Below are positions 19,892-52,835 of a stretch of 64,000 nt of DNA, one piece after another. The number at the start of each line of letters is the position of its first letter. Position 1 is the stretch's first letter. Location of the stretch: positions 17,244,534-17,308,533 of the forward strand of contig OX387193.1 in NCBI GenBank assembly GCA_947561395.2. Reading direction: 5' to 3'. Origin of the DNA: Buxus sempervirens (taxonomy: Eukaryota > Streptophyta > Magnoliopsida > Buxales > Buxaceae). The translations under genes and the position numbers were made by a program. The notes beneath the pieces are model-generated. The model had not been told where the DNA came from. It searched no databases and saw nothing but the letters and a program-made list of their open reading frames with translations.

Positions 19892-20001
19892 TGGAAATGG
19901 TTGGAGTTTGCTAAAAATCAATGGGAGGAAGAAAAAGGCGAACAAGGTGTTTTCTAAACTCAAAAAGTCGTCAAAATGATGCAAATCCCGAGGCTAATTG
20001 C

Positions 20002-20165
20002 ATTTATAGCATGTTTTAATGTATCTGATATATCAGATCGGATACAAGAGACTCTGTTCATATCCGATGAAAAATGCCAGATACAAAATAAAGTGTTTAT
20101 ATCCGACATTTCTCGTCGAATACAAAAACATGTTAATGTATCCGATCTGATATATCAGATACAAG
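20002..20165 (-). promoter_or_regulatory. Probable promoter of element A aORF1: TATA box plus four 39-bp palindrome units
   Basis: Reading toward aORF1, palindromes of the TATCCGA...TCGGATA type occupy units that start on the plus strand at 20021, 20060, 20099 and 20138, exactly 39 bp apart. Next comes TATAAAT (minus strand, 20008-20002), about 110 bp before the conserved ATG at 19891. The layout matches element B 39213-39378, although the motif and period differ. Confidence 0.6.
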
Positions 20166-20367
20166 GAAAAAAGCAAAAAAAAAAAAAGAAAAGGAAGAAA
20201 AATCCGAATTTTTTACCTGTTTCACCTATATACAAGTTTAAATTGCATAAAGATGAGAAGAAAAAGAAAGCAGAACAAGAGAGAATGAATAAAAAGTTTT
20301 TTTTTCATATATATGCAAGCCTCATTTGTACAAAGGATGACATAAATACATAAAAATCCTAATCTAC

Positions 20368-21501
20368 TGCTCCTGTGCAGGATCATTCCCGCGTCCTCTG
20401 CCACGTGCCCCCCTGCGGCCTCTACCTCGAGATGGTCGACGCCCTACCTCGAGATGGTCGATGCCTCAAGACACGGGAAATGATACGCTCGACAAGGTAG
20501 CATGGTCTCCAGCCTAGATAGGACTGAATCTGATACTCAAGGCAGTAGGCCGAATTGTCAGGGAGCGGACCCGTAGGAACAGAATCAGATGAAGAAGCCT
20601 CTGGCTCGGCAGGAGCAGGCTTGGCTGGCAGGATAGCCGCCTTAGGCTTAACTGGATCCTCGACCGTAGGAGTCTCGACTCCCGCAACACCAGAAGTCTC
20701 GGCAGCAGCAGCAGAAGGACCAGGAACAGAAACAGCTGGATTAAAGGAAAAGGAAGTCAGAAGTTGAGATACCATAACCAACCAAGGAAATAAGGCTAAA
20801 ACAAGCTTACCATGGATGTCTGCAACAGGAACTAGGGGATCCAGAATAATCGCAGAAGGAGATACAACCGGGACAGCGGCCGGGATGTCCTTAGACTCAG
20901 GAGCCACCACAGGAGACGAGGTGCTGGCAAAATCCACAGGAGCAGGAGCCACCACAGGAGATAAGGTGCTGGCAGGATCTACAGGAGCAACAACAGCGAC
21001 CGGGTCAAGAACAAGAGATCCAACAGGGTCAGGAATAGCGACCGGGGCGTCCTCGGGATCAGCAGCCCGGACAGGAGATGGACCAGGAATAGGAAGGTCT
21101 GGCCCAACTGAGACATCATGATCGGGGACCGGATCTTGTAAAAATCAAACGGTTCATATCATAACAGCAGGGAAACATAGAAATGAAAGGAATGGAGTTG
21201 TGAAGAACTAAATACTTGTCTAGCCCTAAGCTCAGCAACCAAAGCCTCCAGCTCTCTGATCCAGGCATCTCTCTGGGCCACGGTTGCATCATGCTCAGCA
21301 ATCATATCATCGACTGCAGCCCGCTAGCTTTGAAACTAATCCCGCAAAGCATTCAGCTCATCTACCTGCCAATAAAAACGGGATTAGAATCATAAATGTA
21401 AAATCAAAGAAAATGAGATAGGAGAAGGTAACTTACAATGTCGTCGTGTACTCAGATGTAGATCCCACAAATCTCTGTCACTCCAGCACGAGTGGGTCGA
21501 T
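20368..21501 (-). pseudogene. Element A antisense gene 2 (aORF2), C-terminal part
   Basis: This is the downstream end of the second antisense gene, cut from its N-terminal half (49334-51107) by element B. At the cut it encodes the TRAGVTEICG segment, matching VRGGVTEIGG in the B copy. A coiled-coil-like exon (about 21360-21170, including AVDDMIAEHDATVAQRDAWI) and a low-complexity Ala/Pro/Val/Glu exon follow. The tail has a short basic R/G-rich end (RGARGRGRGNDPAQEQ). A 22-bp unit encoding part of the tail is duplicated (about 20424-20466). Stops and frame changes make it non-functional. The RG-rich tail, as in B, might contact nucleic acid; that is inference. Confidence 0.65.
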
Positions 21502-21506
21502 CCATC
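21502..21506. repeat. Left target-site duplication of element B (CCATC)
   Basis: CCATC directly before the TG of the LTR is repeated exactly at 49329-49333 after the terminal CA. Both flanks, when joined, restore one exon of element A aORF2. This is a standard 5-bp integrase footprint and fixes the outer limits of element B. Confidence 0.93.
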
Positions 21507-23318
21507 TGTAGACACCCCAAATTGCACTACAAAATGAGAAAATAATAAAAACATGTAATTTAAGCTTAAAACAGGTCAAAAATGCATAAAAATTGACTAA
21601 GCAGACTTTGCCCGTATTTCCTTCACGGGCCCGTCTCGCCCGAAAATTCTCTACGGTCAGGCACGCCCGTGGAAACTATACGATCACCATTTGACCGTAG
21701 TGCATTTACGGTCACTAAAGACACGTGCGAGTTTTGTCCTTCTCTCGGTTTTCGAGCTTTATCTTTAGTCCAATATATCTTTAAATGAGCGAATTACGTA
21801 TTTTATTCGCTAAAGCCACCTTGGTTGGCTATGGATGGGCATTATCTCCAATTTTCACTCTATCCTGAGGATCAGGATATATCCTTCTGGACCAGCCTTG
21901 CCCCTGTGCTTGCCTATAAATAGAGGTGAGATTCTTAAGCTAAGGGCCACGAAAATTTGAAGTCCAAGGAATTCTAAGAAGCTCCAAGAGAAGAGAAGAA
22001 CTCCTGCTGCCTGCCTGCTCAATCCAGGTAAGTCCCCTATCCCTTTTTATTTTCTGTCTTCAATTCTAGATGTAATAGGATCATCTCTATTGCTGTAGAA
22101 TAAGGCCATATCTGTTTTTGTATTCCTAAACTTGTCTCTAAGTACCTCAAGAGTCTCTCTAGCCGTAAAACGTGAAGAGAGAACTAGGGGAAAGGGGAAC
22201 AGGTGGATCCCTAGAATAGAACCCCATAATCTGTTTTTTTTTTATATAGAATAAGGCCTGTGATTGTGTTTGTATACCCAAACCTATCTTCAAGTACCTC
22301 AAGAGTCTCTCTAGCCGTAAAACGTGAAGAGAGAACTAGGGGAAAAGAGAATAGGTGGATCCGTAGGGTAGACCCCCATGTGCTCTAATCTGTGAGATGT
22401 GGCTGCTTTGAATATCCTGATCATGTTTTAATGCTTTTTATGATATATCTGAATGAATTACATGAATCTAGGATGTTTATAGCATGAGATCCCCACTTTT
22501 TGATAAATTTGGATTTTTCACATATTTGCACCTACAGCACTGTTTTCGTGATTTTTGTGGTTTTAGGCTAAGATCTTGGATTTATCATGATCAATATAGT
22601 AGATCTAGATCCAGAAGCCTGAAAGTAAATTCTAGGGTTTCATGATGTGGTTTTTTAAATCGTTTTTCACTTTTGAGAGAAGACCCTACGGTCTAAATTC
22701 TCCCTTTTTGGTGTTTTTCATCAACGTGGGTATTTTTGGTTTTTATTTTCTGATTTAATGTGAAATTTGAGCTTTATCTATGTCCTGGACTATTCAAGTT
22801 CAATTTTGAAATATTTTATAAAAATCATATTTTTCCAGATTTCTAGAATTTTGACTTGAAGCCAGATTTTTGGATTTTTCACTTTAAATTGATTTTATTT
22901 GATTTTATCTCAATTTTGTTTTGATCATGAAACCCTAGGAATGGTATGATCATATTTGATAGTTCTGGATCAATCAGAATATTTATATGAAAAACCATAT
23001 ATTTTGCCTTTTTTGTGATTTTTGTGATTTTTATAGCAAGCTTTTTTCCTTTATTTTAAACATGAACAATGCTTGGCAACCACCTTGCGTGGATGAATAG
23101 GGGTGCCTAACACCTTCCCTTGTTCATAACCTAATCCCCTTACCCATCTCTGGTTGTTTTTAAATGAGGGTTATTTTTACCCTAAAAATTGCCTTTTGTG
23201 CTTATTTAATATTTTGGTGTCCATTCACACCTAAATTGAATGGTGGCGACTCTTTGTTTTATTTGATCCCACGTGATGATGGGAGGAAGTCATTAGATTG
23301 ATTTTCCCATGTCTCACA
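21507..23318 (+). repeat. Element B 5' LTR (LTR1)
   Basis: It starts TGTAGACACCCC and ends CATGTCTCACA. It contains a four-unit palindrome array at 21625-21725, a TATA box TATAAATA at 21915-21922 (U3/R boundary shortly after), two ~180-bp related blocks with TAGCCGTAAAACGTGAAGAG at about 22160 and 22313, and an internal TGGCGACTC at 23244-23252 that resembles the real PBS just outside the LTR. Confidence 0.92.
21625..21725 (+). promoter_or_regulatory. 28-bp-period palindrome array in element B LTR
   Basis: Units start at 21625 (ACGGGC), 21653 (ACGGTC), 21680 (ACGATC) and 21708 (ACGGTC), with steps of 28, 27 and 28 bp. Most carry an opposing GCCCGT or GACCGT arm. It lies about 200 bp upstream of the LTR TATA box. 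The copy in LTR2 is at about 44257-44357. Confidence 0.7.
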
Positions 23319-23320
23319 AC

Positions 23321-23338
23321 TGGCGACTCTGCTGGGGA
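23321..23338 (+). promoter_or_regulatory. Primer binding site of element B
   Basis: TGGCGACTCTGCTGGGGA starts two bases after the 5' LTR. A PBS of this kind, complementary to a tRNA-Arg 3' end, has been described for Ogre elements; the tRNA assignment is from memory and was not checked. The duplicated leader after LTR2 carries the same site with one change (CTCTACTGG, 45953-45970). Confidence 0.75.
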
Positions 23339-24793
23339 CTAGAGATTTAAGCCTTTTGGTGTTTTAGTTCATGTTTTTGATATTTTCTGATTTGCTTGCT
23401 ATTTTGTGTTCTTAAGCATGTTGAGTATGTTTTAAATCTGAATTATTGCTTAAGAATTCATGGAGGTAGAAACATACTTAATTTTGATTTATAGGAGTGT
23501 TTCTACAAACATGCTAGGGGAGGTTCGTTTTGCTGAACCATGCTTATTTTTGCTATATTTTTATAATAGCATGTTTTAATTTTCAGCATGATCTCCATGA
23601 TGATTTTGGGTGTATAACATGATCATATGTTTGCATGATAGATGATTTTTTTTATGAGCATGTTTTAGGTGCTATAGGATTGCTTTATTTACTTGTTTAT
23701 TTTAAACATGATTTCCTATTATGCCTTGGTTTGTTTATGCATGGCTGCGAAAAGAGTGGCAAGGGTTTGGGACGTTGTGAATGCACCCAATTTTTACAAT
23801 GCACTATGCACATTTATTTTTTTTACACAGCCTACCCTTAACCTATAGGAAGTTGAACCCGAATGTGTGTAGCTTGGCGCAACGAGGTCGATACTTCGGA
23901 AAGGGAAAGTGAAAACATTCACCTTAGAACTTTGAGCTAATGATGTGATGATAATGTGGATCTGGGATTCTGGTCATCACTAGGCTTGAGTGCTAAGTTG
24001 CTATTAAGCCAAAATTCAAAACCCCTACGCTTGAAGGTGGAGTTACACGTTTTTGGCTAAAGTATACAATTACGTAGGGATATAGGTTTGTATGATTGTG
24101 GGAAGGCCGTGTGCATGGCTTACAAACCAGGGCATAATGCGGATGTCATATTGAAGGTAAACAAGGTAACAAGGTAATCCTATTGCTTTGCATTATTATC
24201 ATGTCATAGGGGTGTCATGGTGCTCATTGGTTGGGGACAAAATTGGTCCCAAATATGTCTGTTCTTAAGCATGGTGTAGCCCATTGGAAGAGTCTCCAAC
24301 TCTGTTTAGAATCAATCCTACCCAAGGTTTGCACAAGAGGTAACAAAAGGGTACCAAATTATGAGTATCGTGTCAATTTGGAGGGTACATGTGTTTTAGC
24401 AAAAAGGTCAAAGTCCACTTTAGGACAGTTTAGAAGCTCTGCAATGGGTGAACCGTATGTTTGGATGAGCAATCAAAGTGATCAAACCATGTAAAAACGG
24501 AAAAAACATAAAAGAGCTCCGTAAAACCGCATTTAGTACACGGGCTGGGCTCGCCCATATTGGTTATACGGGCTAGGCTCGCCCGTGTTGGTCATACGGT
24601 CACGGCTTGCTCGTAATATGAACACGGGCAAGGCTGGACCGTGGTGAATATACGGTTTTCTCGGAGGATTCAACTTTAATCAGTTTTTCTTACTAAAATC
24701 TTCCTTTAACCCTTAAATAATAATAAAGGGAAACAAGTTTGAATAAAATGCTTCAAAAAAATAAAAATAAAAAATAATTGAATAAAAAAAATG
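23339..24793 (+). other. Element B leader, upstream part
   Basis: This is untranslated leader with no convincing gene; short ORFs such as 23635-23841 and 24231-24494 have no recognisable domain. It holds a five-start 28-bp palindrome array at 24540-24657. The same leader is repeated almost unchanged at 45951-47440, including those short ORFs, which shows recent duplication rather than coding selection. Confidence 0.7.
24540..24657 (+). repeat. 28-bp-period palindrome array in element B leader
   Basis: ACGGGC or ACGGTC starts occur at 24540, 24568, 24596, 24624 and 24652, each exactly 28 bp apart. Units carry GCCC(G/A)T, CTCGTA or GACCGT as the opposing arm, for example ACGGGCTAGGCTCGCCCGT. 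The copy after LTR2 is at about 47171-47290. Confidence 0.85.
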
Positions 24794-25815
24794 TGAGAGA
24801 AAGGTTCCTTGGGCTTCTGAAAGCCTTTGAATTTCAGACTTTTTCAAAACTCCTGGGCCTCTAAAAGCTTTTGAATTTCAGATTTTTCAAAAATCCTTGG
24901 GCCTCTGAAAGCCTTTGAATTTCAGACTTTTTATCAAAAAATCCTTGGGCCTCTGAAAGCCTTTGAATTTCAGACTTTTTTCTTTTGGGCCTCTGAAAGC
25001 CTTTGAATTTCAGATCTTTTGGGCCTCTGAAAGCCTTTGAATTTCAGACCTTTTTCTTTTGGGCCTCTGAAAGCCTTTGAATTTCAGATCTTTTGGGCCT
25101 CTGAAAGCCTTTGAATTTCAGACCTTTTTCTTTTGGGCCTCTGAAAGCCTTTGAATTTCAAATCTTTGGGCCTCTGAAAGCCTTTGAATTTCAGACCTTT
25201 TTCTTTTGGGCCTCTGAAAGCCTTTGAATTTCAGACCTTTTTCTTTTGGGCCTCTGAAAGCCTTTGAATTTCAGACCTTTTTCTTTTGGGCCTCTGAAAG
25301 CCTTTGAATTTCAGATCTTTTGGGCCTCTGAAAGCCTTTGAATTTCAGACCTTTTTCTTTTGGGCCTCTGAAAGCCTTTGAATTTCAGACCTTTTTCTTT
25401 TGGGCCTCTGAAAGCCTTTGAATTTCAGACCTTTTTCTTTTGGGCCTCTGAAAGCCTTTGAATTTCAGATCTTTTGGGCCTCTGAAAGCCTTTGAATTTC
25501 ATACCTTTTTCTTTTGGGCCTCTGAAAGCCTTTGAATTTCAGACCTTTTTTTGGGCCTCTGAAAGCCTTTGAATTTCAGATCTTTGGGCCTCTGAAAGCC
25601 TTTGAATTTCAGACTTTTTCTCAAAAACTCTTTGGGCCTCTGAAAGCCTTTGAATTTCAGACTTTTATCAAAAACCCTCGGGCCTCTGAAAGCCTTTGAA
25701 TTTCAGACCTTTTCCAAAAGTATCCTTGGGCCTCTGAAAGCCTTTGAATTTCAGACCTTTTTCAAAAAACCCCCCGGGCCTCTGAAGGCCTTTGAATTTC
25801 AGATCTTTCTCTCTT
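24794..25815 (+). repeat. Leader tandem repeat, about 25 units of 34-48 bp
   Basis: The core GGGCCTCTGAAAGCC followed by TTTGAATTTCAG is repeated about 25 times with variable T-rich spacers (CTTTTT, TCAAAAAATCC, ATCTTTT). Each unit contains CTGAAA...TTTCAG, a 6-bp inverted repeat around 9 bases, so the RNA could form a row of small hairpins. The duplicated leader (47441-47699) keeps only six units and includes one unit variant not found at the same place here. Confidence 0.93.
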
Positions 25816-26056
25816 TTTTGTGGGACCTGTTGGAAGCCCTAGAATATTCCAACAATTCAATTCAAAAAAAAACAAAAAAAAAAGAAGCAAATAAAGAAAA
25901 AAATCCAAACTCGTGTTCACCCAGCTTGCACATAGGCATTTATAGGCATGTGAATGAGATTAATTGGGCACTGATTTTTTTCTTTCTTTATTTTTTTTGC
26001 CAGGTACCAATACACTTGCAATCATAGCTCCTGTAACCAGATCAAGAGCTTGCGCC
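25816..26056 (+). other. Leader end with possible splice acceptor before gag
   Basis: A pyrimidine-rich run ending TTTTTTTTGCCAG at about 26003 looks like a 3' splice site about 53 bp upstream of the first plausible gag ATG (26057). A spliced leader would remove the hairpin repeats from gag mRNA. No donor was identified, so this is a suggestion only. Confidence 0.35.
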
Positions 26057-29000
26057 ATGAATCCCATTGAAGACGAAGCTAATGTTCCTCACCCAGATAT
26101 CGTCTTGTTACAAGAGCAAGTGGCAGGACTAGCCCGAATGCTAGAGAACATACTGTCAGTACAAGCTCAACAAGTGCAGGCCCAACAAATGCAGGCCCAG
26201 AACCAAGCATCCACTTCCAACCCTGCACCTCCACCCCAAATCAATATTCCACCCCCAGTGCAACCAATTCCTGAACCCATCCATGAAACCACTTATGAAC
26301 CTATGGTGACCAAGGATGAAACAGTTGAATCAAAAAAGGCTAAGGAAAAGGAAAAAATGAGGGAAGAAATGGAAAAGAAGTTCATGCAAAGACTGGAAAT
26401 GATCCATGATGAACTAAGGGAAGTAAAAGGGGTAAACAACTTTGGGGGCACCAATTTTGAAGACCTGTGCCTATACCCCAATGTTAACCTGCCGGCTAAG
26501 TTTAAGTGCCCAGACTTGGACAAGTATGATGGCACTGGTTGCCCCATGAGCCACCTAAAGTTATATTGCGGTGCCCTATGCCAGTTCGGGCAGGATGAGG
26601 GTATCTTGATCCAACTTTTCCAAATGAGCCTGACTGGAACCGCATTAAGATGGTTCGCTACTCTGGACCATGGAAAGGTCAAAAGATGAAAGGACCTAGC
26701 CGATGCCTTCCTGGATCAATACCGGTTCAATTCAGAGATAGTGCCAGACAGGTACGACGTCATGAGAATGAGCAAAGGAAGGGATGAGACTGTAAGGCAA
26801 TATGCCAAGAGGTGGAGGGAGACGGCCTCCCAGGTCAGGCCACCCATGCTAGAACAGGAAATGATTTCTACTTTCATCAGCACTTTGGGTCAACCATTCT
26901 ACAGCCACCTGGTGGGTCAGACCACCACTAATTTTGCTGCCTTGGTTCAAGTGGCTGACCGAATAGAAGACGGGATCAGGTCAGGTAAGATAATTGACCA
27001 CTCTGCCATGGTTAATCAACAAGACCCTAATCTGAAGAAAGGAAGCGGGATAAAGAAGAATGGGAACAAGAAGGAGGGTGAGGTAAATATGGTACAGCCA
27101 CCATCTGGCCCTAACAAGCCCATACAAATCAACGTACCAGCTCATTTTCCTACTCCACCTGCTCCATCTACCCCAGCCCCCATGAGGGTTAATGTTCCAG
27201 CAGCACCTTCAGACCAAAAAAGGGTTTTTACTAAGGAGGAAAAGGATGCCTATTTTGCAGCAAGGAGAAATAGGGTTTTTACCCCTATTCCCATGACTCC
27301 TTCTCAGTTGCTGCCCACTCTATTGAAAGCAGGGTATGTCATCTTAAGAGAACCTAATCCGAATGCATCCAAGGGGAGAAATTTTGACCCTTCCACCACT
27401 TGTGATTACCATATGGGAGCACCTGGGCACCCTACTGACAAGTGCTGGCCTTTGAAACATGCCATTCAGGATTTACTGGACCAGAATACCCTGTCTTTCA
27501 ATACAGGGGCTCCCAATCCTCCAAGAACCGATAATGGACAAAACCCACTGCCCCATCATCACGGGGCGGGCCCATCTAATGTCATAGGAGTCATCTCTTC
27601 TAACAAAATAACCTTTGACCCATCTCAATTAATTGCTCCCATAGGGACAACGGTCAAAGTATATTTTGACAGGAGAAATAAAGACAAAGAAGTAAATGTG
27701 ATTTCAAAGGGGGGTGATAGTGCTGCAAAGAACATTAGCTCATCTTTGGACCGGGTCTCATCCCTCATGGCCCAAATGAACATCGCCAAGCCACCTTTGG
27801 TCATTAATTACAATCCATCCACTTTTACTCCACCCATTCAAGCTAAACCACCATTAGTCATAAACTGTGACCCCCTTAGTGCATCAGTCACTTCTACAAC
27901 CCCTCAATCAAAACAACTTCCACCTTTGGTTGTTAATGTTCCTCCATCAAAACAACTTCCACCTCTGGTTATTAATGTTCCATTTACCCAGACCTCCGCA
28001 TCCAAGTCCAAACTTCCTCCATTAGTGGTAAATGTCCCTAAGCCTTCCTACTCTGAATCGGCTGTACCATGGAACTATAGCGAAGCTTTTACCACTACAT
28101 GCCCTGCAGCTGAAAGCAAGGAAGAAGTAAACCTCATGATGAGGTCAGGAAAATGTGTAGGGGTTGAAGAAAAACGAAAAGAGACAGAGAAAGAAAAGAG
28201 AGAAGAAGAAAAAAATAAAGGCAAGGCCAAGGTAGGGGAAGAGGCCCCTCAGGTAATTGACAGCGAGGCTGCTGACCTTATCAAGCTCATAAAAAAGAGT
28301 GAGTTCAATGTTGTCGAGCAGTTGATTAAAGTCCCTGCCCAGATCTCAATTCTGGGATTATTGTTAAATTCTGAAAAACATAGGGACTCCTTGTTAAGGA
28401 TACTCTAGGGGGCCCATGTGCCTAAAAATATTGAACCAGACCAACTAGGCCAGATGGTTGGTCAAATTTTATCCCACAATGTGATAACTTTTTCTGAGAC
28501 TGAAATCAGTCCAGCAGGGTACCATCATGTAGACCCATTGCACATAGCTGCACTCAGTAAGGGTTGCATGATAGACCGGGTTTTAATCGATAATGGGTCG
28601 GCTCTCAATGTCTGCCCATTGATAACCTTTGTTAAGCTCAATTTGGAGCAAAACAAAATAAAACAAAATGGAAGAATCATAAGAGCCTTTGATAGCTCTA
28701 AAACACACTCCCTAGGGGAGGTTGAACTGCCGGTCACAATTGGACCGTATATTTTTAACATCACATTTGAGGTGATGGATATACCTGCGGCCTTAAACCT
28801 ACTCCTAGGAAGGCCGTGGATTCATTCAGCTAAGGCTATACCATCTACCCTCCACCAAAGAGTTAAATATATTAGAGGGCAAAAGGTGATTACTGTCCTA
28901 GCTGAGAATTTGGATCCTCCCATGTGGTCCCCTGATGTACCCTGTATAAACATGGAAATGACTGCAGACAAGTTGACATTTCATTCTTTTCAATTTGAAG

Positions 29001-29734
29001 CTGTGAATTATATACCTGGGGGGTATCAGGAAAAAGAAGGAAAGTTAACCTGCGCTGAGAAAATGGTCAAGAATGTGCTGGAAAAGTACAACTTTCACCC
29101 TGGAAAAGGTCTGGGGGTTAATCTACAAGGAAGGATAGAACCAGTACAGATCAAGAAGATGGTTCACAGAGCAGGGTTGGGGTCCAAGCCAAGGAAATGG
29201 AGAAGACAGGGGCAGATAGAAACCATGAAATTCCCTCATATCAGGGAAACTTTTCCAAAGCTTTCTCACATGATTCAACTGTCTCCTCCTGAGGATCAGT
29301 CCAAACCTCCATACTACAATATAAATCCATTCCAAAAACCTAAATCCTCAACCGTACAACCATATGTTCCACCTCCACCTCCACAAGCATCGGGTGGGCC
29401 TGGGCCACAGGCAGAGCAAGAGCAGGACTTTTCAGAGGACATTGGAGCATTCTTTGCCATGACAGAAGGCAAACAAGAAGAAGTAGCAGAGGAGCTACCC
29501 TTTATTGATTGGGCTGCAGTAGAAGTCCCATCTGGGACCAGCCCTACAAGAGAAGCAGGCGACGCAACTCACCCAGTACTGGTGATTTCTAATGCAGACC
29601 CTGAGCTTGAGGAGCAGGCTTGTATCCCTGCCCCAGATTCTTATATTCTGAATAATTGGGAGGAAATTCCCCTTACTTTTGAAGCCGCGTTTGTTTGGCA
29701 AACAGACATGGCTTCCCAAAAAAAACTCCATTAG
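26057..29734 (+). pseudogene. Element B gag-pro polyprotein (two internal stops)
   Basis: Start ATG 26057 (MNPIEDEA) is chosen because upstream codons belong to the leader. Order: coiled-coil/Gln-rich N-terminus, Retrotrans_gag core (26450-26960), a Pro-rich linker, zinc-knuckle variant C-x2-H-x5-H-x4-C (27401-27445), repeated PPLVVNVP segments, a K/E-rich linker, aspartic protease with D-N-G at 28589-28597, and a G-patch-like motif (FHPGKGLGVNLQG, about 29093-29131). The zero frame ends at TAG 29732-29734. TGA at 26687-26689 replaces a Trp codon that A retains, and TAG at 28406-28408 replaces a Gln codon, so the polyprotein cannot be made whole. Confidence 0.9.
29718..29734 (+). promoter_or_regulatory. 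Probable -1 ribosomal frameshift site, gag-pro to pol
   Basis: The zero frame reads CAA AAA AAA CTC CAT TAG. The run of eight A residues (29718-29725) gives a classic A_AAA_AAA slippery heptamer. Slipping back one base leads into ACT CCA TTA GTG, which is the frame used by pol in element A (KKTPLVDCHFPEGFNEP). The stop lies seven bases after the A-run. Element A has the same A-run (7443-7450) but lost one C before it. Confidence 0.6.
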
Positions 29735-39121: not shown

Positions 39122-39212
39122 GGAAGCGCTAAAGAAGCCAAGGAAAGCGAGAAAAGACGTGCTCAGGGAGTTTTCCAACTAGTAAAAGTGTTACAATGAC
39201 GTTCCCTATGAG

Positions 39213-39378: not shown

Positions 39379-39593
39379 CCGAAAAATGCAAAAAAATTGG
39401 GCAGTTTTAATTTCTTTGTTTTCCTAAGCTTCACCTGTTCCTGTTTTAACATTCATCATGTAATAAAAACTGAAAAGAAAGAAGAAAAGTACACAAATGA
39501 ACACAAATCAAACTTCTTTTATATATATATGAGAATGTTTATATGACTGTCATCAAAAATACAAATGTACATAAGAGAATCCTAATCTATTGT

Positions 39594-42434: not shown

Positions 42435-44122
42435 CTATGGTTCAAAACAGGGAGTTGGTTAATTATTCTTGTTAAAATTTTTAATTGCTTTATTTTAACC
42501 AAGTTTAATTGATTAGCAGGAAAAAGAAAAATGGAGAATGGAAGAAAGTGCCTCAGAAACTCTCGATCAAATCAAGAATTAACTGAAGGAGTTTATATTT
42601 TTCTAAAAATATTTTGTCTGTCTTCGCTTTAAAAATTATATAGAGAAACTGTGTAAGAAGTACATGCTTCTTATAGGTTCTCTTTATATAAAAATAAAAA
42701 AAAATGTGTGTGGATGTTTATTCCTTGGTATGTCCTAAAGATATCTAATCATTTATTTTACTTGGTTTCAGGACAATCAAAGCATGCCAAGATGTTTAAA
42801 TATCATGTGAATCAATGATCGATTCATGCCAAGACATTAAGTATTCCGCTTCAGGGAATAAAATCCAAGTCTAAACAAGTATGGCAGCACCACAGGCCAA
42901 AAGCCAAGATGGAGATATCACAATTGCACTTGAGACTTAAAAATAAGGATGCTCTAGCAGTTAATAGAGTAGCATTCAAGAAGAAGGCTGATCAAATCAG
43001 GCAAAATACAGCAATTCAAAGCTAACATTTCAAGACAGAAAATTGCATGAGACAGCTTCTTACTTCAAAGGAATAAGCAAGTTTCGACCAAATAGAACAG
43101 ATTTCGGTCAAACAAGATGAGCAATACAAACAGGATAATCATGAAGTGTCCAAGGCATTAAACAGTTACAATCTTAATCATATTCAGATGCTCAGAGAAA
43201 ATTGCAAGGAATGGTCGAACAAAAATCATAGATATAATCTGTTAAGGAATGCAAGAAAAATGAAATGATTGTTTCGGCATACCTGTTTATGTGGAAATGA
43301 GCAAAGAAAGGATCGAAATGCTAAGCTCACTCACGGATGATAGCTGATGTTTGGGGATGCTTTGAACGAAATCCCAAGTGACGAGAAGGAGCAGCACTGG
43401 TCTGGAAATGAGGAAGCTTGACTCAAAAATGGTCAAAGCAAGTTTCGGTAGTGGCTCAAAGTGAAGAGGACTCACCGGAGGAGAACAGGAATCACCGGAA
43501 AATGGGAGTAGTCGCCGGAGAACAATGATGGTGGGAGAAGAACAGTAATCACCGGAGGAAGGAGTCGGACTGTTGAAGGGGAAGAGAAAGAACCGTAAGA
43601 GAGAATACGGGCGCAGAGAAATTAGGGCAGAAGTGCGAGCAGAGAAGGAAAAATTCGCATTCGCGGTCTTAAGAAGAGAGTAAAATCCGTAAACTCAGTA
43701 CGGGCATCAGACGCCCGTGAAAGTAATACGGTCCCGATCGCCCGTGAATAATCTACGAGTAACATTGGTCCGTGATACAAATACGGGCGAAGCCAAAAAT
43801 TGCATATTTTATCATTTTCTCCACTTTTTTCAAAAGATTAATGTTTATATTAGTTGTAAGTTGCAAGGATCGCCACCATACCCACTTTTGTTTAAAAATT
43901 TTGTCTCAAATCTCACTTCATAACCCACAAGTGCTCAGTGAGAGGAGAGAGGAGGATTTGGCCCTTAAGCTGAGGGACTTCTTAGCAAATCTTCCACAAT
44001 CAATTCTTTTTTCAAAAATCATCCATTTAATCCTTGCAAAGTGCAATTGATTAGACAAAAATCTCAGAAAGTGCAATTGGTGGGTCTTTTTGCTCTCTGC
44101 TTGTAATTGGTTCCAATTACCA
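42435..44122 (-). other. Region upstream of element B aORF2
   Basis: About 1.7 kb without a convincing ORF lies between the aORF2 start and the polypurine tract. On the minus strand it would be promoter and 5' UTR (a leader intron is possible). It contains repeated CACCGG/CCGGAG motifs (about 43465-43560) resembling those at 51900-52000 in element A, and a palindrome array at 43700-43800. A minus-strand TATATAA lies near 42648. Confidence 0.45.
43700..43800 (-). promoter_or_regulatory. 28-bp-period palindrome array upstream of element B aORF2
   Basis: Unit starts on the plus strand are 43700, 43728, 43755 and 43783 (steps 28, 27, 28). The best unit is ACGGGCATCAGACGCCCGT. It sits in the same place as the 39-bp array at 52120-52185 in element A. 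Confidence 0.65.
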
Positions 44123-44138
44123 GCAAAGAGGGGGCAGC
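44123..44138 (+). promoter_or_regulatory. Polypurine tract of element B
   Basis: CAAAGAGGGGGCAGC lies directly before the TG of LTR2. A purine run here primes plus-strand DNA synthesis in LTR retrotransposons. Element A has GCAAAGATGGGCAGT at the same place (52612-52626). Confidence 0.85.
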
Positions 44139-45950
44139 TGTAGACACCCCAAATTGCACTACAAAATGAGAAAATAATAAAAACATGTAATTTAAGCTTA
44201 AAACAGGTCAAAAATGCATAAAAATTGACTAAGCAGACTTTGCCCGTATTTCCTTCACGGGCCCATCTCGCCCGAAAATTCTCTTCGGTCAGGCGCGCCC
44301 GTGGAAACTATACGGTCACCATTGGACCGTAGTGCATTTACGGTCACTAAAGACACGTGCGAGTTTTGTCCTTCTCTCGGTTTCCGAGCTTTATCTTTAG
44401 TCCAATATATCTTTAAATGAGCGAATTACGTATTTTATTCGCTGAAGCCACCTTGGTTGGCTATGGATGGGCATTATCTCCAATTTTCACTCTATCCTGA
44501 GGATCAGGATATATCCTTCTGGACCAGCCTTGCCCCTGTGCTTGCCTATAAATAGAGGTGAGATTCTTAAGCAAAGGGCCACGAAAATTTGAAGTCCAAG
44601 GAATTCTAAGAAGCTCCAAGAGAAGAGAAGAACTCCTGCTGCCTGCCTGCTCAATCCAGGTAAGTCCCCTATCCCTTTTTATTTTCTGTCTTCAATTCTA
44701 GATGTAATAGGATCATCTCTATTGCTGTAGAATAAGGCCATATCTGTTTTTGTATTCCTAAACTTGTCTCTAAGTACCTCAAGAGTCTCTCTAGCCGTAA
44801 AACGTGAAGAGAGAACTAGGGGAAAGGGGAACAGGTGGATCCCTAGAATAGAACCCCATAATCTGTTTTTTTTTATATAGAATAAGGCTTGTGATTGTGT
44901 TTGTATACCCAAACCTATCTTCAAGTACCTCAAGAGTCTCTCTAGCCATAAAACGTGAAGAGAGAACTAGGGGAAAAGAGAACAGGTGGATCCGTAGGGT
45001 AGACCCCCATGTGCTCTAATCTGTGAGATGTGGCTGCTTTGAATATCCTGATCATGTTTTAATGCTTTTTATGATATATCTGAATGAATTACATGAATCT
45101 ATGATGTTTATAGCATGAGATCCCCACTTTTTGATAAATTTGGATTTTTCACATATTTGCACCTACAGCACTGTTTTCGTGATTTTTGTGGTTTTAGGCT
45201 AAGATCTTGGATTTATCATGATCAATATGGTAGATCTAGATCCAGAAGCCTGAAAGTAAATTCTAGAGTTTCATGATGTGGTTTTTTAAATCGTTTTTCA
45301 CTTTTGAGAGAAGACCCTACGGTCTAAATTCTCCCTTTTTGGTGTTTTTCATCAACGTGGGTATTTTTGGTTTTTATTTTCTGATTTAATGTGAAATTTG
45401 AGCTTTATCTATGTCCTGGACTATTCAAGTTCAATTTTGAAATATTTTATAAAAATCATATTTTTCCAGATTTCTAGAATTTTGACTTGAAGCTAGATTT
45501 TTTGATTTTTCACTTTAAATTGATTTTATTTGATTTTATCTCAATTTTGTTTTGATCATGAAACCCTAGGAATGGTATGATCATATTTGATAGTTCTGGA
45601 TCAATCAGAATATTTATATGAAAAAACCATATATTTTGCCTTTTTTGTGATTTTTGTGATTTTTATAGCAAGCTTTTTTCCTTTATTTTAAACATGAACA
45701 ATGCTTGGCAACCACCTTGCGTGGATGAATAGGGGTGCCTAACACCTTCCCTTGTTCATAACCTAATCCCCTTACCCATCTCTGGTTGTTTTTAAATGAG
45801 GGTTATTTTAACCCTAAAAATTGCCTTTTGTGCTTATTTAATATTTTGGTGTCCATTCACACCTAAATTGAATGGTGGCGACTCTTTGTTTTATTTGATC
45901 CCACGTGATGATGGGAGGAAGTCATTAAATTGATTTTCCCATGTCTCACA
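44139..45950 (+). repeat. Element B second LTR (LTR2), full length
   Basis: It is 1812 bp, the same length as LTR1, from TGTAGACACCCC to TGTCTCACA, with TATAAATA at about 44547. By eye it differs from LTR1 at about 16-18 places. It follows the polypurine tract, so it is the true 3' LTR of the coding part. It is not followed by the target duplication but by another leader. Confidence 0.92.
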
Positions 45951-47699
45951 ACTGGCGACTCTACTGGGGACTAGAGATTTAAGCCTTTTGGTGTTTTAGT
46001 TCATGTTTTTGATATTTTCTGATTTGCTTGCTATTTTGTGTTCTTAAGCATGTTGAGTATGTTTTAAATCTGAATTATTGCTTAAGAATTCATGGAGGTA
46101 GAAACATACTTAATTTTGATTTATAGGAGTGTTTCTACAAACATGCTAGGGGAGGTTCGTTTTGCTGAACCATGCTTATTTTTGCTATATTTTTATAATA
46201 GCATGTTTTAATTTTCAGCATGATCTCCATGATGATTTTGGGTGTATAACATGATCATATGTTTGCATGATAGATGATTTTTTTTATGAGCATGTTTTAG
46301 GTGCTATAGGATTGCTTTATTTACTTGTTTATTTTAAATATGATTTCCTATTATGCCTTGGTTTGTTTATGCATGGCTGCGAAAAGAGTGGCAAGGGTTT
46401 GGGACGTTGTGAATGCACCCAATTTTTACAATGCACTATGCACATTTATTTTTTTTACACAGCCTACCCTTAACCTATAGGAAGTTGAACCCGAATGTGT
46501 GTAGCTTGGCGCAACGAGGTCGATACTTCGGAAAGCGAAAGTGAAAATATTCACCTTAGAACTTTGAGCTAATGATGTGATGATAATGTGGATCTGGGAT
46601 TCTGGTCATCACTAGGCTTGAGTGCTAAGTTGCTATTAAGCCAAAACCCAAAATCCCTACGCTTGAAGGTGGAGTTACACGTTTTTGGCTAAAGTATACA
46701 ATTACGTAGGGATATAGGTTTGTATGATTGTGGGAAGGCCGTGTGCATGGCTTACAAACCAGGGCATAATGCGGATGCCATATTGAAGGTAAACAAGGTA
46801 ACAAGGTAATCCTATTGCTTTGCATTATTATCATGTCATAGGGGTGTCATGGTGCTCATTGGTTGGGGACAAAATTGGTCCCAAATATGTCTGTTCTTAA
46901 GCATGGTGTAGCCCATTGGAAGAGTCTCCAACTCTGTTTAGAATCAATCCTACCCAAGGTTTTCACAAGAGGTAACAAAAGGGTACCAAAGTATGAGTAT
47001 CGTGTCAATTTGGAGGGTACATGTGTTTTAGCAAAAAGGTCAAAGTCCACTTTAGGACAGTTTAGAAGCTCTGCAATGGGTGAACCGTATGTTTGGATGA
47101 GCAATCAAAGTGATCAAACCATGTAAAAACGGAAAAAAACATAAAAGAGCTCCGTAAAACCGCATTTAGTACACGGGCTGGGCTTGCCCGTATTGGTTAT
47201 ACGGGCTAGGCTCGCCCGTGTTGGTCATACGGTCACGGCTTGCTCGTAATATGAACAGAGGCAAGGCTGGACCGTGGTGAATATACGGTTTTCTCGGAGG
47301 ATTCAACTTTAATCAGTTTTTCTTACTAAAATCTTCCTTTAACCCTTAAATAATAATAAAGGGAAACAAGTTTGAATAAAATGCTTCAAAAAAATAAAAA
47401 TAAAAAATAATTGAATAAAAAAAATGTGAGAGAAAGGTTCCTTGGGCTTCTGAAAGCCTTTGAATTTCAGACTTTTTCAAAACTCCTGGGCCTCTAAAAG
47501 CTTTTGAATTTCAGATTTTTCAAAAATCCTTGAGCCTCTGAAAGCCTTTGAATTTCAGACTTTTTCTCAAAAACTCCTTGGGCCTCTGAAAGCCTTTGAA
47601 TTTCAGACTTTTTATCAAAAAATCCTTGGGCCTCTGAAAGCCTTTGAATTTCAGACTTTTTTCTTTTGGGCCTCTGAAAGCCTTTGAATTTCAGATCTT
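45951..47699 (+). repeat. Duplicated partial leader of element B
   Basis: This nearly repeats 23319-25025: PBS-like site (45953-45970, one change), the same short ORFs, the 28-bp palindrome array (about 47171-47290) and the first six hairpin repeat units. It stops abruptly within a repeat unit at CAGATCTTTT and joins LTR3 sequence. No gag or later coding sequence follows. Confidence 0.9.
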
Positions 47700-49328
47700 T
47701 TGGACCGTAGTGCATTTACGGTCACTAAAGACACGTGCGAGTTTTGTCCTTCTCTCGGTTTCCGAGCTTTATCTTTAGTCCAATATATCTTTAAATGAGC
47801 GAATTACGTATTTTATTCGCTGAAGCCACCTTGGTTGGCTATGGATGGGCATTATCTCCAATTTTCACTCTATCCTGAGGATCAGGATATATCCTTCTGG
47901 ACCAGCCTTGCCCCTGTGCTTGCCTATAAATAGAGATGAGATTCTTAAGCTAAGGGCCACGAAAATTTGAAGTCCAAGGAATTCTAAGAAGCTCCAAGAG
48001 AAGAGAAGAACTCCTGCTGCCTACCTGCTCAATCCAGGTAAGTCCCCTATCCCTTTTTATTTTTTGTCTTCAATTCTAGATGTAATAGGATCATCTCTAT
48101 TGCTGTAGAATAAGGCCATATCTGTTTTTGTATTCCTAAACTTGTCTCTAAGTACCTCAAGAGTCTCTCTAGCCGTAAAACGTGAAGAGAGAACTAGGGG
48201 AAAGGGGAACAGGTGGATCCCTAGAATAGAACCCCATAATCTGTTTTTTTTTATATAGAATAAGGCCTGTGATTGTGTTTGTATACCCAAACCTATCTTC
48301 AAGTACCTCAAGAGTCTCTCTAGCCGTAAAACGTGAAGAGAGAACTAGGGAAAAAGAGAACAAGTGGATCCGTAGGGTAGACCCCCATGTGCTCTAATCT
48401 GTGAGATGTGGCTGCTTTGAATATCCTGATCATGTTTTAATGCTTTTTATGATATATCTGAATGAATTACATGAATCTATGATGTTTATAGCATGAGATC
48501 CCCACTTTTTGATAAATTTGGATTTTTCACATATTTGCACCTACAGCACTGTTTTCGTGATTTTTGTGGTTTTAGGCTAAGATCTTGGATTTATCATGAT
48601 CAATATGGTAGATCTAGATCCAGAAGCCTGAAAGTAAATTCTAGAGTTTCATGATGTGGTTTTTTAAATCGTTTTTCACTTTTGAGAGAAGACCCTACGG
48701 TCTAAATTCTCCCTTTTTGGTGTTTTTCATCAACGTGGGTATTTTTGGTTTTTATTTTCTGATTTAATGTGAAATTTGAGCTTTATCTATGTCCTGGACT
48801 ATTCAAGTTCAATTTTGAAATATTTTATAAAAATCATATTTTTCCAGATTTCTAGAATTTTGACTTGAAGCCAGATTTTTGGATTTTTCACTTTAAATTG
48901 ATTTTATTTGATTTTATCTCAATTTTGTTTTGATCATGAAACCCTAGGAATGGTATGATCATATTTGATAGTTCTGGATCAATCAGAATATTTATATGAA
49001 AAAACCATATATTTTGCCCTTTTTGTGATTTTTGTGATTTTTATAGCAAGCTTTTTTCCTTTATTTTAAACATGAACAATGCTTGGCAACCACCTTGCGT
49101 GGATGAATAGGGGTGCCTAACACCTTCCCTTGTTCATAACCTAATCCCCTTACCCATCTCTGGTTGTTTTTAAATGAGGGTTATTTTTACCCTAAAAATT
49201 GCCTTTTGTGCTTATTTAATATTTTGGTGTCCATTCACACCTAAATTGAATGGTGGCGACTCTTTGTTTTATTTGATCCCACGTGATGATGGGAGGAAGT
49301 CATTAGATTGATTTTCCCATGTTTCACA
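47700..49328 (+). repeat. Element B third LTR (LTR3), 5'-truncated
   Basis: It corresponds to LTR2 from 44332 to the end and lacks the first ~193 bp. It keeps TATAAATA (about 47924) and ends TGTTTCACA at 49328 before the CCATC duplication. It shares several base changes with LTR2 but not LTR1 and others with LTR1 but not LTR2, as expected if all three derive from a tandem arrangement with some exchange. Confidence 0.9.
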
Positions 49329-49333
49329 CCATC

Positions 49334-51107
49334 AGGCACCCAATGGATACCCTCTTGATCCATTCGTCATAATCTCCAGCTACTGTAAGCCCCTCCGCAT
49401 CCTGATACTGATCAAACTGATTAATATCAAACCCAGGAAGGAGCGTGTCGGGACCCACAGGAGGAGGAGGAACTAGGATACGAGGTACGCCTGTGTGCTG
49501 ATAGTACAGGCGCTCTCCTAGATACATCACCCTACCAAGCCTTCCAAGGAAGCACTGGTAGGGCTGGCGTCGAAGGTCTCGGTCAAAAGCGTCCTGTAGT
49601 ATCATCTCACGGGCAACCCCGATATCCACATCATCAAAGCGTGCCAATAGGAGCTGCAAAGAAGAAGAATGAGGTCAAATACAAATAAGGTATAGGAAAA
49701 GAGACAAAAGAAAAGGGGCGAAGATTTTTACATCAGATCGTCGAGCACGGTCCAAATGAACCCAAGCAGTGCTCCTGTCTGTATCTCTATCCATGACAGA
49801 CCACCGTAGGGCAACCGGGAACTCCACAACACTAGGCACGGGGGGACGGGCTGAAGAAAGCCATGTAGGTATACATAAATACCTGGCAAAAGAAAAATCG
49901 ATCAAGGATAAAGAAAATAAAGTTTTGGTGGATAAGACAAAGCAGATGTATTCAGTACCTGCAGGATCTGCCAAAAGAACCAGCAGCTAACTCCATCACC
50001 CCTCGAAGCGGCCAAACCTCGAACCACCCGACATAATCCAGCCAAGATGGTCCCGTATATAAGCCGACCCCATGCTAACTGCCTGGTCTGACGGAAATCT
50101 CTCAAAGCATCCAAAAAGAGAGGACTAACACTGGTCGTGTCCTCCTGAAAAAAACAGCTCCCGAGCATCAACAAGAACACGTGCCGAAAAATAGGAGCAA
50201 AAGCCACGTCCTCCCCGGCAATGGTCGCATGTCTCCCATCGAAGTGCCGAGTAAGGCTCTCTCACAGCCAGCTGATGGAGATACAGCCGCTCCTCCCGTC
50301 CCAAGCATCGTCAGGCCAGTCCTCGTATCCCAAGAGAAGGCCGGTGTCCGCAACTGAGGGCCAATCCAACGCTATAGTCCGCCCCACCAAAGGAATGTCG
50401 GTGATCATGACAAAATCGGAGGGACGGATCCCAAGCTCAATGTCCAAAAGATGAAAGGACTGTGTCTCTGGGAAGTATCACTCCATCATGGAAAAGATAA
50501 GGGGACGGTCGGCTCGGAACGAAGGGATACGGAGAAAATAATCAAGACGGCACCTACTGAACCCACGCCTGAGTGCTGGAGAAAGCGTCTGAGCCAACTA
50601 ACTAAACCTCCCCCAACTGCCTCGTAGATAGGAGGGAGGATATGGGAGTGGAACATCAGCACGGATGCACATGGAGGGGTGGCTATCCAAGCCACTAAGG
50701 AGCTCTGTATCATGAACAAACGCTCTCAACTCCGCGGAGATCCCTAGGCGGAAAGCTGAAGCAATACCCTCCTGACCGGAAGCTCCGGCTCGGCCTCGGC
50801 CCCTTTTTCTGGCTCGGCCTCGGCCCCTCTCTCCAACTTTACCTTGACCTCTCTCTTGGCCTCTACCCCGACCTCAAGCAAGAACAACAACGGGCTAAAA
50901 TTCAAAAGAGAGATGGTAAAAGTTTGTTTAAAGAGAAAGAAGAATTTGAGTCCCTACCTCAACAAAACACTCTCCAGAGCTCTTTCTAGAATCATCTAAT
51001 GGCTCGGATAAGGTGGCACTCTGATCAGAATCGATCCGAGCTCGGGACGAAGAGGGCTGATCAGCTGGATCAACCTCCTCTCGCACGTGAGAATGACCTC
51101 TAGCCAT
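49334..51107 (-). pseudogene. Element A antisense gene 2 (aORF2), N-terminal part
   Basis: It starts at ATG 51107 (MARGHSHVREEVDP). Exon 1 ends near 50958 (GAG|GTAGGG). Exon 2 starts near 50894 and is R/G-rich (GRGRGQERGQG, RKRGRGRAG), then has the PMD-like core (GSWGRFS; FVMITDIPLVGRTI; CFFQEDTTSVSP) to a donor near 49958. A later exon (49656 to 49334) has QPYQCFLGRLGRVMYLGERLYY and GDYDEWIKRVSIGCLM, where element B is inserted. Stops (for example TGA in VVVLA*GRG near 50877 and TAG near 50602) show it is dead. The exon order matches element B aORF2. Confidence 0.72.
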
Positions 51108-52611
51108 CTATATGCAACAGGGAAGTATCTTACTATATTTTGGAGGTTTATCGGGAATTTTAATTCTGTTTCCTATCCTTTGTTTCAGTACAAAATTATC
51201 AAGAATTTTTTTTCTTATTTACTTTTGTTTTCTATTTCAGTCCAAGTGCATAGTCATCAGGAAGTGAAAGACCCAAGTCAAACGCAGAAATTTGCAGGGA
51301 TACATAGCTGGTTTTAGAAATCATCAAGAACTACCAAGTTTGCTAAAATGCATAAAAGGAACTGAAAAGCAGTACCAAATATCAAGGAAAATACAGTGCA
51401 TGATCAGAGTGGAATCATTGAAGCTCATATGGAGAAGGTTGACACAATAGCACAGTCAGAGCTATAAGAAAGGGTCGAGCATACCCAATGTGTGAAGAAA
51501 ATATCAATTTGTGCAAGTAATTGCAGGCAAGAAATGCCATTAGTAAACAAGAAACAGCATGGTGATGAGGAGAAATTCTTCACCACCAGCGATTCAATTC
51601 GAAATGTACTCATACAATTCAGGTGGAAATCATTACTGGCAGGCATTCCAACAATTTCGAAGCATGGGTTTGCAAACATATAGAACCCTCAAGAAGTCAT
51701 CACAGCAAAGGAAAAAAGAAGGCCTACTTACCGATAATGCCGAACAGCAAGAACAGTGCAAGAATGAAAGAAGATTGGGCGACGAGCAGAAGGGGCTACC
51801 TAGGTTGCCGGAACCAAAATGAAGTCACCAGAGCTCGTACAAACGGCGTCAGGCAGTAGGACCACCGGGAATCAGAAGACTTCAGGAAGGAAGGAAGAAA
51901 GTCGAACCAGGACTTGACAATGATCTTTGGATTGTCTGAAGTTAGAGTCGCTGGAATCAAATGAGTCGCCGAAAGTCACAAGAAGCTGCTAGAATCGAAG
52001 AGAATAGTCGGGGAAGATAACCGATGAGGGGGAAGAAAAGGCCTGTATCCGGTCTAAGCAATCGGAGAAGAAGAGAAATGGGAAAGGTCGCGGTCTCGCG
52101 CGACCAAATAAAACTTCATGTATTCGACGAATCATATCGGATACAAATAAAGGTTTTGATATCCGACTAAATATGTCGGATACAAAAGAAAAATAGAAAA
52201 AAAAAGGGAAAAAAGAAAAGAAAAGGGAAAAAAGAGAATGAAAAAGAAGAAAAAAAAAAGAAAAAAAGGAAAAGAAAAGAAAAAAAAAGAAAAAAAAGAA
52301 AAAAAAAGAAAAAAAAGGAAAAAAATGTGTTGGTCCAAAGGAAATATTCAGTCAATTTTTTTAACATGGTTTGATGAAAAATCAGTTTTTTTTTTCAAAA
52401 ATCTTATTTTGGTCTTAAAATCCACTTCATAGCCATGAGAGCTCAGTGGAATTTAAGACGACTTGGAAAAATGCCCCCTTAAAGCAAGGGCTTTTTGGCA
52501 AATCTTCACCCAAAATTATTTTGCAAAATTAAATTGAACCAAGCAAATCATGGTCAAGAAAACGCAATTTAGGTTTGTCTAATCTTTGCAAATCATTGCT
52601 CTACAATTCCT
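51108..52611 (-). other. Region upstream of element A aORF2
   Basis: No gene is seen; short ORFs here have no domains and overlap on both strands. It corresponds to 42435-44122 of element B. It contains a two-unit 39-bp palindrome array (52120-52185) and a long A/G-rich tract (52190-52325), a pyrimidine tract for the antisense transcript. It ends at the polypurine tract of element A. Confidence 0.5.
52120..52185 (-). promoter_or_regulatory. 39-bp-period palindrome units upstream of element A aORF2
   Basis: Two units, GTATTCGACGAATCATATCGG at its left arm (start 52120) and ATATCCGAC...GTCGGATA (start 52159), lie exactly 39 bp apart. They match the motif and period of the other element A arrays. 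On the minus strand they sit ahead of a TTTTATTTGG stretch that could serve as a weak TATA element. Confidence 0.5.
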
Positions 52612-52626
52612 GCAAAGATGGGCAGT
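52612..52626 (+). promoter_or_regulatory. Polypurine tract of element A
   Basis: GCAAAGATGGGCAGT lies directly before the 3' LTR start TGTAGACATCCC. It is the counterpart of 44124-44138 in element B, with two purine-run changes. Confidence 0.75.
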
Positions 52627-52728
52627 TGTAGACATCCCAAATTTCACAGTGAAAATGATGAATAATTGGAAAAAATCATTCTTTCCTTTGTAACCAGCAC
52701 AAAAATTCAAATTTAAACATTCTTTATT

Positions 52729-52835
52729 GTATCCGACACAAGTCATCGGATACAAGCAAGTATTAGTGTATCCGACGACATGTGTCGGATACAAATATGT
52801 TCCCTTATATCCGACCTGAGTTATCGAATACAAGG
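52729..52835 (+). promoter_or_regulatory. 39-bp-period palindrome array in element A LTR
   Basis: Units start at 52729, 52768 and 52807, exactly 39 bp apart: TATCCGACACAAGTCATCGG, TATCCGACGACATGTGTCGG and TATCCGACCTGAGTTATCGA, each continuing ATACAA. The third unit is nearly the S2 motif (TATCCGGCCTGAGTTGCCGG). It lies about 165 bp upstream of the LTR TATA box. Confidence 0.75.

Follow-up and report, generated by a model that had tools for sequence, protein, structure and literature searches.

Family-specific palindrome arrays at sense and antisense promoters of Tat-type retrotransposons in Buxus sempervirens, and their possible reading by the elements' own antisense genes

A 64,000-nucleotide stretch of the Buxus sempervirens genome, hereafter the window (C19:17244534-17308533), is a nest of long terminal repeat (LTR) retrotransposons in which element A lies on both sides and element B within A. 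Both carry the same two genes in antisense orientation (antisense open reading frames aORF1 and aORF2, which in A are decayed), and clusters of short palindromes stand before these genes and before the TATA box of the LTR. Searches of the whole genome (676.5 Mb in 247 contigs) revealed that the palindromes of one element mostly share a motif class, that the class differs from family to family and that, between two families called alpha and beta, the specificity bases have changed jointly at sites that otherwise retain their individual ancestry. We read this as two half-sites that would be recognised by a symmetric factor, with selection apparently acting jointly on the sites of one element. 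On the basis of sequence comparisons, a protein of the element's own antisense genes is tentatively put forward as the reader of the arrays, with a probability of about 0.46.

Palindromic arrays and motif classes

The palindromes of element A have the form GTATCCGA-N9-TCGGATAC, with seven fixed bases per arm, and all follow one another in 39-bp steps. Four worn 25-bp copies precede aORF1 (20021..20162, minus strand), two precede aORF2 (52120..52183, minus strand) and three are found in the LTR (52729..52831, plus strand), where the TATA box lies at 52998; mismatches to the motif amount to 1, 2, 2 and 1 in the first array, 1 and 1 in the second, and 0, 0 and 2 in the third. These nine sites, at 20021/20060/20099/20138, 52120/52159 and 52729/52768/52807, are exactly those claimed in a preliminary description of the window. 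A TATA box of the antisense strand, CTATAAA (20003..20009, minus strand), starts 11 bp past the last aORF1 palindrome. Between the aORF2 array and the start of aORF2 lies another palindromic stretch, GTCGCGGTC..CGCGAC (window 52086-52106), which is also seen near -650 in the alpha copies L055 and L062, with no TATA box obvious there.

Element B has palindromes of the ACGGKC-N7-GMCCGT type at places matching those of A, in agreement with the preliminary description, which had given the class as ACGGGC..GCCCGT. They occur in the 5' LTR (21608..21720, plus strand), before aORF1 (39258..39359, minus strand; 55- and 28-bp steps, with a TATA-like box further on), before aORF2 (43700..43773, minus strand; a 55-bp step, with more half-sites to about 43790) and in the 3' LTR (44238..44358, plus strand). 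A fourth array, absent from that description, comprises four sites in 28-bp steps in the 5' leader (24540..24642, plus strand, and again 47173-47275), distant from the LTR TATA box.

Genome-wide, where reversed patterns searched in the same genome served as controls, TGTATCCGAN9TCGGATACA with at most two mismatches was found 36,380 times (control 8), a count that takes in G-type sites. Exact A-type sites (TATCCGAN9TCGGATA) number 8,452 and exact G-type sites (TATCCGGN9CCGGATA) 28,399, with controls of 2 and 5 respectively; chance is thus excluded for the A-type palindromes, since their genome counts are far above those of the reversed control. Mixed A/G sites number 4,387 (control 7) in comparison with the 15,795 expected if the halves were independent, and AACCGCACN5GTGCGGTT, again with at most two mismatches, occurs 15,687 times against 307 in the control. 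Four classes were distinguished, namely alpha (GTATCCGG), beta (GTATCCGA, which includes A), gamma (TACGGKC, which includes B) and delta (AACCGC), with the half order CCG-CGG in alpha, beta and delta and CGG-CCG in gamma. A longer palindrome, AACCGCACTTNAAGTGCGGTT, seen in G000:C1 at 28-, 48- and 76-bp steps (for example at 14429515/14429563 and 17307417/17307493/17307521), is probably another motif class.

The arrays keep characteristic positions within the elements. Five alpha elements are bounded by LTR arrays that lie 20.1-20.7 kb from each other. Apart from the 5' and the 3' LTR, the exact sites listed in them are confined to three places: the leader (+3.66 to +3.86 kb), a stretch before aORF1 (+14.9 to +15.6 kb) and a stretch before aORF2 (+19.5 to +19.8 kb, with an exact site in three of the five). 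The names of all these places follow B as well as L055, L056 and L062 by analogy. In seven of eight alpha and beta copies, the nearest palindrome is followed after 11 bp by the antisense TATA box of aORF1, and in L104 this distance is held only by a worn site overlapping its neighbour; in B the distance is 36 bp, and before the aORF1 of two delta copies no antisense TATA box was found. In the LTR, TATAAA follows the array at a distance of 156 bp in the 11 alpha windows long enough to include it; L047 has 166 bp, and the range across three gamma windows is 187-224 bp.

Agreement of the motif within elements

The junction between polypurine tract and LTR, GGGCAGYTGTAGACAYCCC, occurs 3,053 times in the genome (1,511 forward and 1,542 reverse; controls 0). 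A sample of 100 junctions was taken, six members of a seven-member tandem run were removed, and the first 60 of the remaining 94 along contig 1 were analysed. At least two sites in both the aORF2 promoter and the LTR were present at 31 of the 60, and the majority class was the same on both sides in 29 of these, which bears out the earlier claim that the array motif co-varies within elements. The other two are ties, both on the aORF2 side: L038 has one site scored as alpha and one as beta, with three G and one A among the half-sites, and L085 has the GTATCCGGC form (zeta), outside the four scored classes. As for the other 29 junctions, 18 have arrays in the LTR only, two a single LTR site, one (L070) an array in the aORF2 promoter only, and eight no array of at least two sites. 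Two related families with the same junction (L052, L053, L066, L074, L086 and L096; L101 and L102) gave no array of at least two sites in the stretches read. The number of sites differs among copies.

Similar agreement was obtained for the aORF1 promoter, which could be read together with the element's own LTR in nine elements (alpha L055/L036, L056/L040 and L062/L038; beta A, L057/L047 and L103; delta L058/L043 and L059/L049; and B), with the same class on both sides in eight. L104 and L105 have A-type arrays before aORF1 and are called beta by their A-like aORF1 and the motif of this promoter alone, their own LTR arrays not having been seen. Among 30 copies found by the aORF1 of B (B included), 29 have at least two gamma sites in the flank read, those counted in L028 being more than 500 bp apart, and none of the 30 has two or more sites of a non-gamma class.

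At a stricter cut, flanks free of arrays (-300 to +80, 63 sequences including A, B and L103) formed one group of 34 (alpha, beta, zeta, A and L103) and others of 15 (gamma and B), 6 (delta), 6 and 2. This cut sets apart gamma, delta, epsilon and L101/L102, and a looser one joins gamma and delta; the split between alpha and beta is made by the LTR motif, the flanks leaving alpha, beta and zeta in the one group of 34. The difference in motif between related elements, as first described, is real, but its unit is the family and not the single element. The uniform period described along with it holds for the A-like families (39 bp) and the B-like ones (28/55 bp) but not for delta, whose mixed spacings (28, 38-41, 23, 68 and 117 bp) led us to reject the period as a family constant.

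Six B-like copies (L041, L044, L054, L078, L095 and L099) keep gamma arrays in the LTR with one or no site in the aORF2 promoter. Upstream of L041 and L044, in L061 and L060, searches at E 1e-3 gave no aORF matches; instead of the aORFs there is a ~43-bp tandem repeat. Elements of the L041/L044 type are probably non-autonomous partners.

Homologous sites in the alpha and beta families

Ten sites can be aligned between alpha and beta: four before aORF1, two before aORF2 and four in the LTR. Alpha units came from 27 elements (23-27 for the LTR sites, 16 for the aORF2 promoter and 2-3 for the aORF1 promoter) and beta units from 4-5 per site; L085 was moved from alpha to zeta, and units of the aORF2 promoter needed exactly two chained sites. 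At the specificity positions (8, 9, 17 and 18 of the 25-mer), identity between homologous alpha and beta sites is 0.17, in comparison with 0.77 and 0.74 among the sites within alpha and within beta, whereas at the 14 outer half-site positions alpha and beta are 0.98 identical. Base 8 of the majority units differs in 19 of 20 half-sites, all but the right-hand one of the second aORF1 site. The core and spacer behave in the opposite way: their identity is 0.59 for homologous sites across families and 0.35 and 0.40 for the sites compared inside one family, and re-pairing the sites at random matched the observed value in 1 of 20,000 shuffles. Each site thus keeps its own descent, and the specificity bases change together.

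These data bear on the two causes that the preliminary description had offered side by side, co-evolution with an element-specific protein and homogenisation within the element. Gene conversion or array replacement within an element would likewise yield uniform motifs, and the variable number of sites between copies is in its favour; since cores and spacers follow the homologous site and keep its ancestry, while the specificity bases follow the family and change together, homogenisation is disfavoured, being in our estimation very improbable, and co-evolution with a sequence-specific trans factor is favoured. A decay of methylated sites was also rejected as the cause of the alpha/beta difference (GGT versus GAC), because in either direction one of the two bases changes as deamination would have it and the other runs against it, and decay alone cannot give both.

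Conservation of the palindromes as RNA or DNA hairpins, whether as small-RNA hotspots or as recombination or packaging signals, would be suggested by the location of the sites within the transcribed length of the element, judged by position, and by the palindromes in the LTRs of Sireviruses, which are described, in the part of that work drawn on here, as fast-evolving hotspots of small-RNA mapping (PMC5311732). Compensatory changes of the two arms were nevertheless not in excess: 148 alpha sites have 77 single-arm deviations and none in both arms (1.2 expected if independent), and 48 beta sites have 60 and 2 respectively (2.2 expected), so that hairpin conservation was rejected as the explanation. 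Moreover, almost all sites of a family repeat one half-site sequence, a constancy that structure by itself would not demand. Altogether, hairpins are a quite improbable reason for the arrays.

The antisense genes as candidate readers

The aORF1 of B matches DUF7745 (2e-19) and the plant mobile domain, PMD (1.7e-9), both over Pfam's cut-off, and one exon piece of its aORF2 matches PMD with 1.3e-8 and 34.8 bits for a cut-off of 34.9, a second piece giving 3.2e-5. Neither PF04195 (Transposase_28) nor DUF1985 was among the hits at E<=1 for the ten aORF pieces scanned. Homologues of aORF1 in the protein collection were limited to one weak match in Lycium, and a search with a clean region gave none. 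Omega is mostly 0.04-0.2 for both genes (full range 0.03-0.41, several pairs being synonymously saturated), and both are under purifying selection. Between families, aORF2 diverges more than aORF1, which might fit a specificity factor.

In the mechanism that we propose, the arrays would be operator clusters for a sequence-specific, symmetric and probably dimeric DNA-binding factor serving the LTR, the antisense promoters of aORF1 and aORF2, and the 5' leader region. The best candidate reader would be aORF2, or the pair of aORF1 and aORF2, both similar to PMD. The bound protein may switch on the transcription units of the element or keep them free of silencing, as VANC does for VANDAL transposons, and families would diverge when protein and half-site change together, giving each family a private code. 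Binding by a protein, its encoding by the element, and activation or anti-silencing rather than repression are all three steps that we infer.

Repression itself has some points of contact with the data. In this case the arrays would be sites for repression or silencing, recognised either by the host or, within its own element, by the aORF product, and a change of motif would be a way of escaping the repressor. According to the portion of PMC7156037 considered, transposon silencing in Arabidopsis involves the PMD proteins MAIN and MAIL1, and the operator-like spacing of 11 bp to the antisense TATA box would suit a repressor too. Escape should, however, ruin sites singly and not rebuild nearly all of them into a new shared palindrome, and we consider this explanation improbable.

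Several observations weigh against a reader encoded by the element. Regarding the arrays, the gamma pattern TACGGKCN7GMCCGTA with at most two mismatches occurs 41,332 times and has a high control of 4,769, and eight of the 60 junctions are, as said, without an array of at least two sites in the stretches read. Motifs are also not perfectly pure, since three alpha elements have one beta-scored site (L038 as above; L065 and L068 each have it among four LTR sites) and the ninth element of the aORF1 comparison, the beta copy L047/L057, is mixed before aORF1 (3 A and 4 G half-sites). Mixed motifs inside single elements, which the preliminary description regarded as fatal to its claim, are thus present at a low level: base 8 is G in 290 of 294 alpha half-sites and A in 78 of 89 beta ones, where the others are 10 G-type and one T-type. 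Regarding the proteins, the PMD matches of aORF2 lie under Pfam's cut-off, no known DNA-binding domain is among the Pfam hits of the aORF pieces, and no solved relatives were found at E<=1 for two of these pieces. The predicted correlation between motif and aORF protein also turned out weak in the small samples compared: alpha and beta, both with GTATCCG, have a similar aORF2, but those of gamma and delta are 53-81% alike despite different motifs. This imperfect tracking of the motif class by aORF2 weighs against the element-encoded reader and in favour of a host factor. Finally, palindromes of the CGG/CCG type exist in Ty1/copia elements of the Sirevirus group, so the feature needs no such aORFs, as far as the relevant part of PMC2829016 describes it.

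A further difficulty comes from C-type elements, whose LTRs carry GTATCCGG palindromes at 39 bp. Two relatives of this type, L106 and L107, with LTR pairs 19.75 and 18.35 kb apart, have kept the GTATCCGG palindromes in the LTR, and no aORF1 or aORF2 match was found in the 6.85 kb read, which lead to the 3' LTR and extend into it (best E 0.012). That stretch stops before the TATA box, which is seen in a copy of the window called C2. C2 is a solo LTR (7630-10571, target site duplication ACCAG) with GTATCCGGC palindromes: a first array of this type (8170..8376, plus strand; the last two sites 39 bp apart) stands just before the TATA box at 8388, and a second has a 39-bp period (9411..9555, plus strand). 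Solo LTRs of the C type, which start with TGTAAGCACC, are found in the pol regions of A and B at 7630-10571, 11460-14756 and 31088-34209 (minus strand). At a comparable place, C3 (13430-13570) and C4 (32190-32470) have GC-rich repeats with other motifs, which suggests that C subfamilies, too, differ in motif class.

C-type elements could exploit the zeta or alpha protein in trans. Alternatively, a host factor might do the reading; the sharing of the GTATCCGG motif by these elements, in which no aORF was detected, would fit both hijacking and a host factor. In the latter case a host transcription factor, for example a MYB-related one, would read the arrays, and each family would have adopted a different factor or paralogue. 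GGATA and AACCG, which resemble MYB-type cores, and the position of the arrays, at the usual places of host activators, are compatible with it. Some Sirevirus palindromes are similar as well, such as AATCCGGCTWRCCGGATT from Citrus in the section of PMC2829016 concerned. A host factor alone nevertheless leaves unexplained both the joint base change at ten homologous alpha and beta sites and the number of private classes in one genome, and is judged unlikely, although by no means negligible. The complete scenario that includes the element-encoded reader, in which Tat families each encode an antisense PMD-type regulator that reads private palindromes, split by joint change of the two and are hijacked by C-type elements, is a doubtful but serious candidate.

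Organisation of the nested elements

Element A, an LTR retrotransposon of the Ty3 Tat type, is interrupted by element B, whose insertion (21508..49328, plus strand) has CCATC on each side and first two LTRs that are 98.9% identical. The layout of B is LTR, internal region, LTR, leader and truncated LTR, all within one target duplication; this third LTR is truncated at its 5' end and follows the second leader copy (window 47700-49328). A Pfam scan of the pol of B gave the order RVT_1, RT_RNaseH, RVT_3 and rve, that is, an additional RNase H and an integrase after the RNase H domains, as is characteristic of Tat (Ogre-like) Ty3 elements. The long region between pol and the 3' LTR, with extra ORFs of the PMD family, is another Tat trait found here, both ORFs being antisense.

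In element A, aORF1 is of the PMD/DUF7745 type (18192..19993, minus strand) and is decayed by stops and frame changes, with one intron-like gap. The aORF2 of A is divided by the insertion, with its 3' exons before B (20425..21323, minus strand) and its 5' exons after it (49330..51107, minus strand), the latter decayed and with a weak PMD match. The 3' LTR of A (52628..57283, plus strand) starts with TGTAGACATCCC after the polypurine tract, and its end at 57283 was deduced by homology with the LTR end of B. In B, aORF1 (37331..39178, minus strand) has one in-frame stop and one intron-like gap, and aORF2 comprises several exons (39597..42434, minus strand).

Relation to known systems

VANDALs are Mutator-like DNA transposons, and the VANC-family protein is DUF1985. 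The elements described here share with them family-specific motif clusters in non-coding regions. In the parts of the Arabidopsis work used here (PMC5735166, PMC10398659), VANDAL motifs also differ between related families, and co-evolution with a fast-changing protein is proposed as well; VANC binding is proven there, whereas for the arrays of Buxus it is proposed. The VANC21 motif YAGTATTAY is portrayed in those same parts as non-palindromic and growing by tandem repeat formation, whereas here we find palindromes near promoters. Moreover, the present elements are LTR retrotransposons in which, unlike in VANDAL, homologous sites persist while the specificity bases change.

The nearest precedent at the DNA level, which lowers the novelty of the finding, is given by the repeated-motif boxes of Sireviruses. 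As far as the pertinent parts of Bousios 2010 (PMC2829016) go, the palindromes there are specific to the element and almost always have a CGG-CCG core; their clusters lie upstream of the TATA box in the LTR and, where an env-like gene is present, upstream of that gene too. The same parts include neither antisense PMD genes, antisense promoters nor a homologous-site test. Element-specific palindromes before the LTR TATA box and before an accessory gene are thus shared at the DNA level. On the other hand, Sireviruses are Ty1/copia elements with the integrase before the reverse transcriptase, and the integrase of element B comes after RNase H.

Retand elements with antisense TRP28 are, in the portions of Vicient 2025 (PMC11963269) relied on, Ty3 elements whose long stretch from pol to the 3' LTR carries conserved antisense ORFs as well as tandem repeats specific to the family, and DNA binding and a regulatory role are suggested there; palindromic arrays and co-variation do not appear in those portions. 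TRP28 (PF04195) is not among the Pfam hits of our elements, which have PMD and DUF7745 instead. Large Ty3 elements of the Tat/Ogre type commonly have an extra PMD ORF (57% of Ogre elements), and the relevant part of Neumann 2019 (PMC6317226) mentions no private promoter code and leaves the PMD orientation unstated. The host PMD proteins MAIN and MAIL1 are needed for expression of genes with a common promoter motif; the DOWN site of MORC1 (CATGCAGTTT) is not described as palindromic in the sections concerned (PMC7156037, PMC9899485). That site was rejected as the same element, its sequence being unlike these motifs. In the open-licence literature, judged mostly by titles, no report of palindromic arrays in PMD-bearing Tat elements was found, and the parts of papers covered describe no homologous-site test in them.

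Significance

Passages of PMC11963269 and PMC7264820 state that it is unknown what the antisense genes of Tat-type retrotransposons do. Private promoter codes that change in concert point to a concrete and testable role for these genes, and the presence of alpha, beta, gamma and delta in one genome offers naturally occurring pairs of sites and candidate proteins for comparison. The finding would also be relevant to the way in which PMD proteins such as MAIN and MAIL1 locate genes, to the means by which mobile elements counteract silencing without interfering with one another, and to the question of how the specificity of a regulator can shift when ten or more sites must follow. If true, the proposed reading would amount to a retrotransposon counterpart of VANC and to a DNA-reading function for the plant mobile domain.

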